Assembly (NCBI GenBank): GCA_003697125.1
Contig: RFGB01000037.1
Location: forward strand, 1 to 38,985
Source of the DNA: Alphaproteobacteria bacterium
Lineage (GTDB): Bacteria > Pseudomonadota > Alphaproteobacteria > Rhodobacterales > Rhodobacteraceae
DNA length: 38,985 nt
Reading direction: 5' to 3'
This document shows positions 1,126 through 8,441 of this stretch, one piece after another. Position 1 is the stretch's first letter, and every line of letters starts with the position of its first letter. The position numbers and the translations under genes are program-made. The notes beneath the pieces were generated by a model that searched no databases, was not told where the DNA came from, and worked only from the letters and a program-made list of their open reading frames with translations.

Positions 1126-1154
1126 GTGATCACATAGGATTTTCCTGTGATCAC
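1126..1154. promoter_or_regulatory. Twin GTGATCAC palindromes (candidate operator or RNA hairpin)
   Basis: Two identical 8-bp palindromes GTGATCAC lie at 1126-1133 and 1147-1154, with centres 21 bp apart (two helical turns). The second extends to TGTGATCACA. Such spacing suits two dimers on one face of DNA upstream of the sucC promoter. The same bases could fold as RNA: GTGATCACA pairs with TGTGATCAC around a short GGA/TCC stem, so a 3'-UTR hairpin of mdh is the alternative. I cannot name the regulator. Confidence 0.5.
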
Positions 1155-2930: not shown

Positions 2931-3818
2931 ATGGCCGTTCTGGTCGACGAGAACACCAAGGTGATCTGCCAGGGCCTGACCGGTGCCCAGGGCACCTTCC
3001 ATACCGAGCAGGCGATCGCCTACGGCACCAAGATGGTCGGCGGCGTCACCCCGGGCAAGGGCGGCACCGCCCATGTCGGACTGCCGGTCTTCGACACCGT
3101 GGCCGAGGCCCGCGCCGCCACCGGCGCCACCGCGACCGCGATCTATGTTCCCCCGCCCTTCGCGGCCGACGCGATCCTGGAGGCGATCGATGCCGGCATG
3201 GAACTGATCGTGTGCATCACCGAGGGCATCCCGGTGCTGGACATGATGCGGGTCAAGCGCGCGCTGCAGGGCACCCGCTCGATCCTGATCGGGCCGAACT
3301 GCCCCGGCGTGATCACGCCGGACGCCTGCAAGATCGGCATCATGCCCGGGCACATCCATCGCCGCGGCTCGGTCGGCGTGGTCTCGCGCTCGGGCACGCT
3401 GACCTATGAGGCGGTCGCCCAGACCACGGCGGCGGGCCTGGGCCAGTCGACCTGCGTCGGCATCGGCGGCGACCCGATCAAGGGCACCGAACATGTCGAC
3501 GTGCTGGAATGGTTCCTGGCCGATGACGAGACGCAGGCGATCATCATGATCGGCGAGATCGGCGGCACCGCCGAGGAGGAGGCCGCGCAGTTCCTGAAGG
3601 ACGAGGCGCGGCGCGGCCGCCGCAAGCCGGTCGCGGGCTTCATCGCCGGGCGCACCGCCCCCCCGGGCCGGCGCATGGGCCATGCCGGGGCGATCATCTC
3701 GGGTGGCAAGGGCGGCGCCGAGGACAAGATCGAGGCGATGCGCTCGGCCGGCATCGTGGTCGCCGACAGCCCCGCGGCGCTGGGCGAGGCGGTGCTGAAG
3801 GCGATCGAGGCGTTCTGA
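2931..3818 (+). CDS. sucD: Succinate--CoA ligase, alpha subunit
   Basis: Partner of SucC; carries the phosphohistidine and the CoA-binding Rossmann domain. The 295-residue product starts [18 protein letters not shown], has the CoA-binding [21 protein letters not shown]-like region, IGPNCPGVI and SRSGTLTYE, and the active-site histidine in [10 protein letters not shown]. The start at 2931 was chosen over the long ORF (from 2577) because it matches the family N-terminus and follows an aacgagaggacgagagg ribosome-binding region. An 8-bp hairpin overlaps its stop codon. Identification is secure. Confidence 0.97.
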
Positions 3819-3863: not shown

Positions 3864-3893
3864 GAGGGAGCGGGCCACCGGCCCGGCATGGGC
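3864..3893 (+). promoter_or_regulatory. sucA ribosome-binding site with an intervening hairpin
   Basis: GAGGGAG (3864-3870) is the only good Shine-Dalgarno before sucA. It is directly followed by a perfect hairpin CGGGCC-ACC-GGCCCG (3871-3885), then GC and the start ATG (3888), with a second ATG at 3894. Linear spacing is 17 or 23 bases, too long for normal initiation. With the hairpin looped out the spacing to the second ATG becomes about 8. Confidence 0.4.
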
Positions 3894-6839
3894 ATGACCC
3901 AGCAGTCGCGCAACACGCAGTTCCACGCATCCTCCTTCCTGCAGGGGCACAACGCCCACTATGTCGAACAGCTCTATGCCCGCTATGCCGCCGATCCGCT
4001 GTCGGTGGACGAGAGCTGGCAGGAATTCTTCGCCGCGCTGGGCGACGACGCCGCGACGGTGCGCAGCGAGGCGTCCGGCCCGTCCTGGGCCCGGCGCGAC
4101 TGGCCGCCCACCCCGCGCGACGACCTGACCGCGGCGCTGGACGGCGACTGGGGCGAGGCTGTCGCCAGGGTCGAGAGCCGGGTGCGCGAGAAGGCCGCCC
4201 AGGGCGGGGTCAGCCCGACCGAGACACAGGTCCGCCAGGCGACGCTGGATTCGATCCGGGCGCTGATGCTGATCCGCGCCTATCGCATCCGCGGCCATCT
4301 GGTCGCCGATCTCGATCCGCTGGGCCTGCGCGAGAAGACCCCCCACCCCGAGCTGGACCCGGCCAGCTACGGCTTCACCGAGGCCGACATGGACCGGCCG
4401 ATCTTCATCGACAACGTGCTGGGCCTGCAGACCGCGACGCTGCGCGAGATCCTGGCGCTGGTCAAGCGCACCTATTGCGGCACCTTCGCGCTGCAGTTCA
4501 TGCACATTTCCGACCCCGAACAGGTCGCCTGGCTGAAGGAACGCATCGAGGGTTACGGCAAGGAGATCCAGTTCACCAAGCGCGGCCGCCGGGCCATCCT
4601 GAACAAGCTGGTCGAGGCCGAGGGTTTCGAGAAGTTCTGCCACGTCAAGTTCACCGGCACCAAGCGCTTCGGCCTCGACGGCGGCGAGGCGCTGATCCCG
4701 GCCATGGAACAGATCATCAAGCGCGGCGGCGCGCTGGGGGTGAAGGAAATCGTCATCGGCATGCCCCATCGCGGCCGGCTGAACGTGCTGGCCAATGTGA
4801 TGGGCAAGCCCTATCGCGCCATCTTCAACGAGTTCCAGGGCGGCAGCTTCAAGCCCGACGACGTGGACGGCTCGGGCGACGTGAAGTATCACCTCGGCGC
4901 CTCCTCGGACCGCGAATTCGACGGCAATGTCGTCCACCTGTCGCTGACCGCGAATCCCTCGCATCTGGAGGCGGTCAACCCGGTCGTGCTGGGCAAGGCG
5001 CGCGCCAAGCAGGAACAGCTGGGCGACACCGAGCGCAAGGCGGTCCTGCCGGTGCTGCTGCATGGCGATGCCGCCTTCGCCGGGCAGGGCGTCGTGGCCG
5101 AATGCTTCGGCCTGTCGGGCCTGCGCGGCCACCGCACCGGCGGCACCATCCATATCGTGGTGAACAACCAGATCGGCTTCACCACCGCACCACACAACTC
5201 GCGCTCCTCGCCCTATCCCACCGACATCGCGCTGATGGTCGAGGCGCCGATCTTCCACGTCAATGGCGACGATCCCGAGGCGGTGGTCCACGCCGCCAAG
5301 GTCGCCACCGAGTTCCGCCAGAAGTTCGGCAAGGATGTCGTCATCGACATGTTCTGCTATCGCCGCTTCGGCCACAACGAGGGTGACGAGCCCATGTTCA
5401 CCCAGCCGCTGATGTACAAGGCCATCAAGCGGCACAAGACGACGCTGCAGCTCTATACCGAACGTCTGGTCGAGGACGGGCTGATCCCCGCCGGCGAGAT
5501 CGAGGACATGAAGGCCGCCTTCCAGGCCCGGCTGAACGAGGAGTTCGAGGCCGCCAAGGATTACCGCCCCAACAAGGCCGACTGGCTGGACGGCCGCTGG
5601 GCTGGGCTTGGGCGCGAGGATGGCGAGTATCAGCGCGGCGAGACGGCGGTCCCCGAGGAGCGGCTGCGCCGCATCGGGCTGGCCCTGTCGACCATCCCCG
5701 ACGGGATCAAGGCCCACAAGACCGTTGCGCGCCTGATGGAGACGCGGCGGCAGATGATCGAGACCGGCCAGGGGATCGACTGGGCGATGGCCGAGGCGCT
5801 GGCCTTCGGATCGCTTCTGACCGAGGGCTTCCCGGTGCGCCTGTCGGGCCAGGATTCCACCCGCGGCACCTTCAGCCAGCGCCACGCGGCGATCATCGAC
5901 CAGGACACCGAGGAACGCTACTTCCCCCTCAACAATCTCGGGATGGATCAGGCGCAGTTCTTCGTCGTCGATTCCATGCTGTCGGAATATGCCGTGCTGG
6001 GCTTCGAATACGGCTATTCCCTGGCCGAGCCGAGGGCGCTGGTGCTGTGGGAGGCGCAGTTCGGCGATTTCGCCAATGGCGCCCAGATCATGATCGACCA
6101 GTTCATCAGCTCGGGCGAATCCAAGTGGCTGCGCATGTCCGGGCTGGTGATGCTCCTGCCCCATGGCTATGAGGGTCAGGGGCCCGAACATTCCTCGGCC
6201 AGGCTGGAACGCTATCTGCAACTGTGCGCCGAGGACAACCTGATCGTCGCCAACTGCACCACGCCCGCGAACTATTTCCACATCCTGCGCCGGCAGATGC
6301 ACCGCAACTTCCGCAAGCCGCTGGTGCTGATGACGCCCAAGTCGCTGCTGCGCCACAAGCTGTGCGTGTCGAGGCTGGCCGAGATGGCCGAGGGGTCGTC
6401 CTTCCACCGCGTGCTGTGGGACGATGCCGAGCTTGGCAATTCGGCGCTGAAGCTGCGCCCGGACGAGGAGATCCGCCGCGTGGTCATCTGCTCGGGCAAG
6501 GTCTATTACGACCTGCTCGAGAAGCGCGACGAGATGGGCGCCGACAACATCTATCTGCTGCGCCTGGAACAGTTCTACCCCTTCCCGGCCCTGTCGATGA
6601 CCAGGGAGCTCGCCCGCTTCAAGCAGGCCGAGATCGTCTGGTGCCAGGAGGAGCCGAAGAACCAGGGTGGCTGGACCTTCGTCGAGCCGAACATCGAATG
6701 GGTGCTGGGCCGCATCGGCGCGTCCTGCGCCCGCCCGCGCTATGTCGGCAGGCGCGCCGCCGCATCGCCGGCGACCGGCTTCGCCAGCAAGCACAAGGCC
6801 GAGCAGGAGGCGCTGGTCTCCGAGGCGCTGACGCTCTGA
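3888..6839 (+). CDS. sucA: 2-oxoglutarate dehydrogenase E1 component
   Basis: Thiamine-diphosphate-dependent E1 of the 2-oxoglutarate dehydrogenase complex; decarboxylates 2-oxoglutarate and succinylates the lipoyl groups of SucB. The 983-residue product is slightly longer than the usual ~930-990. Visible family features: N-terminal E2-contact segment (ASSFLQGHNAHYVEQLY), IGMPHRGRLNVL, LLHGDAAFAGQG, NNQIGFTT, DSTRGTFSQRHA and the C-terminal QEEPKNQGGW. The start is either ATG 3888 or ATG 3894 (MTQQSRN); the ribosome-binding site arrangement favours the second. It lies 69 bases after sucD and 12 before sucB, within the same operon. Identification is secure. Confidence 0.97.
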   Translation: MGMTQQSRNTQFHASSFLQGHNAHYVEQLYARYAADPLSVDESWQEFFAALGDDAATVRSEASGPSWARRDWPPTPRDDLTAALDGDWGEAVARVESRVREKAAQGGVSPTETQVRQATLDSIRALMLIRAYRIRGHLVADLDPLGLREKTPHPELDPASYGFTEADMDRPIFIDNVLGLQTATLREILALVKRTYCGTFALQFMHISDPEQVAWLKERIEGYGKEIQFTKRGRRAILNKLVEAEGFEKFCHVKFTGTKRFGLDGGEALIPAMEQIIKRGGALGVKEIVIGMPHRGRLNVLANVMGKPYRAIFNEFQGGSFKPDDVDGSGDVKYHLGASSDREFDGNVVHLSLTANPSHLEAVNPVVLGKARAKQEQLGDTERKAVLPVLLHGDAAFAGQGVVAECFGLSGLRGHRTGGTIHIVVNNQIGFTTAPHNSRSSPYPTDIALMVEAPIFHVNGDDPEAVVHAAKVATEFRQKFGKDVVIDMFCYRRFGHNEGDEPMFTQPLMYKAIKRHKTTLQLYTERLVEDGLIPAGEIEDMKAAFQARLNEEFEAAKDYRPNKADWLDGRWAGLGREDGEYQRGETAVPEERLRRIGLALSTIPDGIKAHKTVARLMETRRQMIETGQGIDWAMAEALAFGSLLTEGFPVRLSGQDSTRGTFSQRHAAIIDQDTEERYFPLNNLGMDQAQFFVVDSMLSEYAVLGFEYGYSLAEPRALVLWEAQFGDFANGAQIMIDQFISSGESKWLRMSGLVMLLPHGYEGQGPEHSSARLERYLQLCAEDNLIVANCTTPANYFHILRRQMHRNFRKPLVLMTPKSLLRHKLCVSRLAEMAEGSSFHRVLWDDAELGNSALKLRPDEEIRRVVICSGKVYYDLLEKRDEMGADNIYLLRLEQFYPFPALSMTRELARFKQAEIVWCQEEPKNQGGWTFVEPNIEWVLGRIGASCARPRYVGRRAAASPATGFASKHKAEQEALVSEALTL

Positions 6840-6851
6840 GAGGATGAGACA

Positions 6852-8441
6852 ATGAGCATCGAGGTTACCGTCCCGACCCTGGGCGAAAGCGTCACCGAGG
6901 CGACCGTCGCCACCTGGTTCAAGAAGCCCGGTGACCCGGTGGCCGTCGACGAGATGCTGTGCGAGCTGGAGACCGACAAGGTCACCGTCGAGGTGCCCAG
7001 CCCCGCCGCCGGAAAGCTGGCCGAGATCCTGGTGCCCGAGGGCGGCACGGTCGGCGTCGGCGCCGTGCTCGCCACCATCGAGACGGGGGCGGGCGCGAAG
7101 AAGGCCCCCGCGGCGCCGGCCGAGGCCGAGCCGGACGCCCCGGCAGGGAAGGCCCCGGCCCCGCGCGCCGAGGCCGGGGCGGCCGCATCGGGCGCCGCCG
7201 GGGATGGCGAGGCCGGGGGCACCGTCGAGGTGCCGGTGCCCGCGCTCGGCGAGAGCGTGACCGAGGCCACCGTCGCCAGCTGGTTCAAGAAGCCCGGCGA
7301 CGCGGTTGCCGCCGACGAGATCCTGTGCGAGCTGGAGACCGACAAGGTCACCGTCGAGGCGCGCAGCCCCGCCGCCGGCACGCTGGCCGAGATCCTGGTG
7401 CCCGAGGGCGGCACCGTCCAGGCGGGCGGCCGCCTGGCGCTGATCCGCACCGGCGCCGCAGCCGCCAAGGACGCCCCCGCCGCGGCCGCGGACGCCCCCG
7501 ACGGCGAGGGTGGCGCGGAGGCGGCCCCGGCCCGGGGCCAGCCGCGGCGCGATGTCGAGCACGCCCCCTCGGCGCGGGTGCTGATGGCCGAGAAGGGCCT
7601 GTCGCCCGACCAGGTGCAGGGAACCGGACGCGACGGGCGCATCATGAAGGAGGACGTGCTGAAGGCCGCCGCCCAGCCACCTTCCCAGCCCGAGGCACAG
7701 CCCGCCCGGACCCCGCGCGCCCCGGTTCCGGCCGAGGATGCGGCGCGCGAGGAGCGGGTGCGGATGACCCGGCTGCGCCAGACCATCGCCCGCCGGCTGA
7801 AGGACGCGCAGAACACCGCCGCGATCCTGACCACCTACAACGAGGCGGACATGTCCGCCATCATCGCGCTGCGCAACGAATACAAGGACATCTTCGAGAA
7901 GAAGCACGGCGTGAAGCTGGGCTTCATGTCCTTCTTCGTGAAGGCCTGCTGCCATGCGCTGAAGGAGGTTCCCGAGGTCAACGCCGAGATCGACGGCGAG
8001 GACATCGTCTACAAGAACTACTACCACATCGGCGTGGCGGTGGGCACGCCGCAGGGGCTGGTGGTGCCGGTGGTCCGCGACGCCGACCAGCTGTCCTTCG
8101 CCGCGATCGAGAAGCGCATCAGCGAGCTGGGCGCGCGCGGGCGCGACGGCAAGCTGACCCTGGCCGAGATGCAGGGCGGCACCTTCACCATCTCCAATGG
8201 CGGGGTCTACGGCTCGCTCATGTCCTCGCCGATCCTCAATCCGCCCCAGTCGGGCATCCTCGGCATGCACAAGATCCAGGAACGCCCGGTGGTGGTCGGC
8301 GGGCAGATCGTCATCCGCCCGATGATGTATCTCGCGCTCAGCTATGACCATCGCATCGTCGACGGCAAGGGCGCGGTCACCTTCCTCGTCCGCGTGAAGG
8401 AGTCGCTGGAGGATCCCCGGCGGCTGCTGATGGACCTCTAG
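6852..8441 (+). CDS. sucB: Dihydrolipoyl succinyltransferase (E2o) with two lipoyl domains
   Basis: Core of the 2-oxoglutarate dehydrogenase complex; transfers succinyl from lipoyl-lysine to CoA. The 529-residue product is longer than the ~400 of single-lipoyl E2o. Order of domains: lipoyl 1 (residues ~1-77, lipoylated K43 in ETDKVTVE), Ala/Pro-rich linker, lipoyl 2 (~124-201, K165 in the same motif), second linker, peripheral-subunit-binding domain (~235-270, [11 protein letters not shown]), linker, and catalytic domain (~295-529) with SYDHRIVDG containing the catalytic His and Asp. The DNA of the two lipoyl domains is very similar over long blocks. Two-lipoyl E2o proteins occur in related alphaproteobacteria. 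A gagaggatgagaca ribosome-binding region overlaps the sucA stop. Confidence 0.95.
6861..7446 (+). repeat. Internal tandem duplication encoding the two lipoyl domains
   Basis: Unit 1 (about 6861-7080) and unit 2 (about 7227-7446) are offset by 366 bases. Blocks around the lipoyl-lysine codons (a 37-base block beginning ctgtgcgagctggag) and around gctggccgagatcctg (about 33 bases) are identical at the nucleotide level, indicating recent duplication or continuing gene conversion. Confidence 0.8.

Follow-up and report, generated by a model that had tools for sequence, protein, structure and literature searches.

The window (the whole 38,985-nucleotide stretch of DNA that was analyzed) carries a run of TCA cycle genes on its plus strand. 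The malate dehydrogenase gene mdh (122–1084; Pfam Ldh_1_N and Ldh_1_C) is followed by sucC (succinyl-CoA synthetase beta chain, 1283–2512; an ORF with 74 to 85% identity to relatives in the family), the first gene of an operon that continues with sucD (2931–3818), sucA (2-oxoglutarate dehydrogenase E1, 3888–6839) and sucB (dihydrolipoyl succinyltransferase, 6852–8441), three ORFs identified by their own sequences. Between mdh and sucC, a gap of 198 bp holds two exact copies of the 8-bp palindrome GTGATCAC, at 1126–1133 (in the context cGTGATCACA) and at 1147–1154 (in the context TGTGATCACAAA), on either side of an AT-rich spacer of 13 bp (1134–1146; no strand is assigned to these three parts). 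Their start-to-start distance is 21 bp, as the original prediction had described. With its flanks, the whole putative operator occupies 1125–1157 on the plus strand, outside its upstream neighbor mdh, and follows the family consensus TTGTGATCACA-N11-TGTGATCACAAA.

A scan for sigma-70 promoters and terminators found neither. In relatives, a TTT-rich block recurs ∼48 bp and a TATA-like block ∼70 bp downstream of the second palindrome, and the window has TTGTAT (1203–1208) and CTAAGC (1224–1229) at the matching positions, which suggests a weak candidate promoter at 1203–1229 on the plus strand. If this is the promoter, the operator would lie upstream of it, centered near -90, the position to be expected of an activator site. 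The original prediction had put the pair upstream of the main promoter of the TCA operon, which was that reader's own supposition; downstream of the pair there is only the weak candidate. Just after mdh, positions 1096–1118 can form a strong GC-rich hairpin with a 10-bp stem and a 3-nt loop and without a T run, which may end the mdh message. The gap between sucC and sucD (2513–2930) contains an ORF of ∼120 codons whose start resembles a signal peptide and which has no match in Pfam. This gap measures 3 bp to 1.2 kb in relatives and no homolog of the ORF was found in their sucC-sucD gaps, so that the spot seems to collect differing inserts.

Single copies of GTGATCAC are not rare: four occur in the window and 128 in its genome. 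The copy at 3309 falls inside sucD over Val-Ile-Thr codons, and such codons are probably the source of much of this abundance. From 128 single copies, ∼0.005 exact pairs at a 21-bp spacing are expected in the genome and one is observed, so that the genome-wide search proposed with the original prediction returns the mdh-sucC gap as the sole exact pair and bears out the claim that the pair exceeds chance. The longer form TGTGATCACA has a single occurrence genome-wide, at 1146; in a genome-wide pattern search for YGTGATCACR, the remaining sites were all CGTGATCACG or the copy of the pair at 1125.

Phylogenetic footprinting of the gap, also proposed at the outset, was carried out on 30 sucC loci picked by SucC protein similarity alone, the locus of the window included. 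The pair is present upstream of sucC in 28 of them, with a spacing of 21 bp in 26 and of 20 bp in two, and mostly 97 to 115 bp from the start codon. A direct pattern search across 150 sampled genera of the family recovered the pair in 134, as two copies in most genomes, and the control, the reversed pattern, gave no match. Outside the family, the search returned a pair in only one of 140 genomes of the class (G050); with a 22-bp spacing and a position beside an alpha/beta hydrolase gene, it was set aside as unrelated. Two family members that had entered the sample of the rest of the class both carry the pair. Column conservation was computed on 66 elements, 46 from sucC and 20 from sdhC. Both palindromes are invariant in the footprint upstream of sucC, an invariance that holds by construction for loci fetched by pattern, while protein similarity alone had selected about half of the 46 sucC elements; the spacer is unconserved across the 66 elements except for the inner A and T that adjoin the palindromes. 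As a phylogenetic footprint the pair is strong. It had been conceded that a motif lacking in close relatives and from related genes elsewhere would speak against a regulatory role, and the pair proves both conserved and present before sdhC.

Among the loci examined, the pair precedes sucC or sdhC (almost always at ∼110 bp from the former and at 110 to 190 bp from the latter) throughout, with exceptions only in two genomes: G067 has a third pair directly before fumC (L042 1501-1529), and in G162, where sucCD is not downstream of mdh, the pair precedes sucA. At locus L079 the gene homologous to sucA is directly 3′ of the element. In the genome of the window, sdhC lies on another contig (C153, L312) and is preceded by GTGATCGC-N13-GTGATCAC, a pair with one mismatch and the same 21-bp spacing. 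A location upstream of the sucCD-sucAB and sdhCDAB operons is therefore seen before sucC in the window, before sdhC in relatives and, with the one mismatch, before sdhC in its own genome. Another GTGATCAC lies farther upstream, and the three GTGATCAC-like sites before this sdhC, at -230, -197 and -176, have spacings of 33 and 21 bp, or roughly three and two turns of the helix. When genomes with one exact pair were re-examined, about half had a pair with one or two mismatches before sdhC; no such pair precedes sdhC in five pairless genomes.

Strong sites of the form TTGTGATCACAA were also encountered alone, at akgR genes, before fumC in G064 (L281) and, in G141 (L278, G141:C8:82702-82713), 130 bp before a carboxylase-like gene. 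The start of the latter gene resembles that of pyruvate carboxylase or of some other biotin-dependent carboxylase, which would make it a possible anaplerotic target. A regulon built on lone TTGTGATCACAA sites was dropped as the cases are too few. The pair in G067 and the lone site in G064 suggest that fumarase is part of the regulon in some genera.

The activator AkgR of Rhodobacter sphaeroides, a candidate for the protein that would bind these sites, we take to be RSP_0981, in keeping with synteny: akgR often lies ∼10 kb from sucC in convergent orientation, which fits the position of RSP_0981 near RSP_0962-0976. RSP_0981 is a GntR protein predicted to regulate the genes for succinyl-CoA synthetase, succinate dehydrogenase and 2-oxoglutarate dehydrogenase in R. 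sphaeroides (PMC4344238), and GTGATCAC, the core palindrome present exactly at both sites of the window, is given as a motif among the sites of AkgR in PMC6365646. The genome of the window has 28 GntR-type hits, and a comparison of its GntR proteins with those encoded by relatives with small genomes singled out the AkgR orthologous group. Its member here, G000:C172:5798-6457, is a protein of 220 residues with an N-terminal GntR winged helix (PF00392, 58.1 bits) and a C-terminal FCD domain (PF07729, 67.8 bits), both above cut-off, which places it in the FadR/FCD subfamily of the GntR superfamily. It is 68 to 75% identical to the orthologs elsewhere, and is identified as AkgR by orthology rather than by a match to a record of that name. 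Another candidate regulator, L100, was discarded when the nearby GTGATCAC turned out to lie inside its own coding region.

An AkgR ortholog at least 68% identical was detected in 16 of 16 pair-bearing genomes tested. The exact search left 16 pair-negative genomes, 13 of them with a readable sucC; one of these, G065, has both an AkgR ortholog and a one-mismatch pair and is a false negative. None of the other 12 encodes a full-length AkgR ortholog, the homologs short of this being a 95-residue piece in G135 (60%) and proteins in G079 (44%), G005 and G127 (both 36%). With G065 counted as positive, co-occurrence is 17/17 versus 0/12 (Fisher p = 2e-8, a value that is too strong owing to shared ancestry and to the hand-picked sample of pair-positive genomes). 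In the pairless G079 (contig C66, L171), TTTGATCAAA stands upstream of the gene for the 44% homolog; regulator and site have possibly diverged together there.

We also gathered 80 akgR loci by protein only and sought GTGATCAC within 260 bp upstream. It is present in 55, compared with ∼0.8 expected, and in fact lies within ∼90 bp of the gene, usually as a single copy. No upstream GTGATCAC was found for akgR in the genome of the window, nor at the Cereibacter and Rhodobacter akgR loci, and a site before the regulator's own gene is common in the group without being a defining feature of AkgR operators. Because the site adjoins its own start codon in most relatives, akgR is suggested by these sequences to be autoregulated there.

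We propose that the pair serves as a double operator for AkgR, a regulator of the GntR superfamily (FCD/FadR-type) that is predicted to bind it in this organism, and give this reading a probability of about 0.9. One AkgR dimer would occupy each GTGATCAC palindrome, and the 21-bp spacing, equal to two helical turns, would align both dimers along one side of the double helix, ahead of the sucC promoter, from where they may activate sucCDAB. The matching pair upstream of sdhC would bring succinate dehydrogenase under the same control, and the usually single site next to the akgR start codon in most relatives would serve autoregulation, in a direction that we infer. The sequence, its conservation, the target genes, the spacing, the co-occurrence of the regulator and the site before the regulator gene in relatives were observed here; the motif and the activation by AkgR in R. 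sphaeroides come from the literature, the motif by way of a citing paper (PMC6365646). The original prediction of a cooperative operator for a GntR-type regulator holds as to the regulator class, on the footprint, the second target operon, the GntR/FCD co-occurrence, the own-gene site in most relatives and the AkgR motif from the literature, whereas cooperativity is something we infer from the fixed spacing.

An operator for a regulator other than AkgR, such as a GntR paralog of the 2-oxo-acid or sugar-acid class, is possible but unlikely. The genome is rich in GntR proteins, any of which could share the site as a paralog, and the same palindrome has been proposed as the operator of a GntR protein from Pseudomonas with 32% identity to AkgR (PMC6365646). 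Against this, it is the AkgR ortholog that tracks the pair across the genomes tested, in a comparison that covers the AkgR group, the motif precedes akgR itself in most relatives, and akgR is linked to the TCA cluster. The double AkgR operator is far better placed, too, than a CRP/FNR-type operator, whose CRP form the original prediction had offered as a variant and which we consider very improbable. The TGTGA...TCACA half-sites do resemble those of CRP, which binds TGTGA-N6-TCACA, but here they abut, with 0 bp between them instead of the 6 bp needed. In addition, the co-occurring protein is of the GntR/FCD type, and R. sphaeroides is without a predicted CRP analog (PMC4344238). No better chance attaches to the other variant on offer, a hairpin formed by the mdh transcript in its 3′ untranslated region. 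Positions 1085–1282 fold well as RNA (z = -3.0) and the AGGA/TCCT of the spacer in the window can lengthen the stem, but two self-complementary palindromes can always pair, across the 66 elements the inner spacer has little tendency to pair and is not conserved as a stem, and sdhC, fumC and sucA are preceded by the same element. The end of the mdh message would be better ascribed to the separate hairpin at 1096–1118, which already follows mdh, than to the twin palindromes. Chance repetition of an 8-mer as common as GTGATCAC has a negligible claim on a pair so far above expectation whose spacing and place are fixed and kept family-wide.

Under the double AkgR operator, the site defines in a little-studied relative a putative switch in the TCA cycle that would couple the succinate dehydrogenase step to the succinyl-CoA/2-oxoglutarate steps. 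One operator geometry is kept in nearly all sampled genera of a large and ecologically important marine and soil family, and the operator is missing where the regulator is missing. The geometry offers a ready rule for predicting the AkgR regulon, which in some genera includes fumC, and it suits the question of why activation by a GntR/FCD protein should take two sites at a distance of two turns. More tentatively, and at somewhat less than even odds, we speculate that a two-mode code operates throughout the family, in which the strictly spaced pair is required for activation of TCA operons, akgR controls itself through the lone site at its start, and loss of the site goes with loss of the regulator. 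If so, the sign of the regulation that one GntR/FCD protein exerts would depend on the number of operators.

The closest known system is the AkgR regulon of R. sphaeroides, reportedly described by Imam, Noguera and Donohue (2015, mBio 6:e02461-14), where AkgR is said to activate the TCA cycle. The locus studied here shares with it the motif GTGATCAC, the suc and sdh target operons, the GntR ortholog and the bacterial family (PMC6365646, which cites that work; PMC4344238), and differs in genus and in having an akgR without an upstream site. PS417_07240, the GntR regulator of a deoxyribonate cluster in Pseudomonas simiae, likewise has GTGATCAC as its proposed operator and is the protein with 32% identity to AkgR, but its single palindrome lies before its own operon, at -47 to -40, in a catabolic cluster and not in the TCA cycle (PMC6365646). 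CceR (RSP_1663), a LacI-family regulator of central carbon metabolism in the same bacterial family, has mdh and sdh among its predicted targets (PMC4344238, PMC11323563); its motif is [A/G/T]GTT-N6-8-AAC[A/C/T], unlike the GTGATCAC palindrome. McbR of Escherichia coli (PDB ID: 4p9f) is the closest solved relative of the AkgR alignment (E = 1e-24), a likeness of protein sequence only, and it and other solved GntR/FCD proteins are without demonstrated regulation of TCA genes. AkgR, its motif and its TCA targets are already known from the literature, and the operator before sucC is an ordinary example of them; three features may be new, namely a 21-bp geometry held fixed across the family, the fact that it and the regulator are absent together, and the paired sites at targets versus mostly lone sites at akgR.
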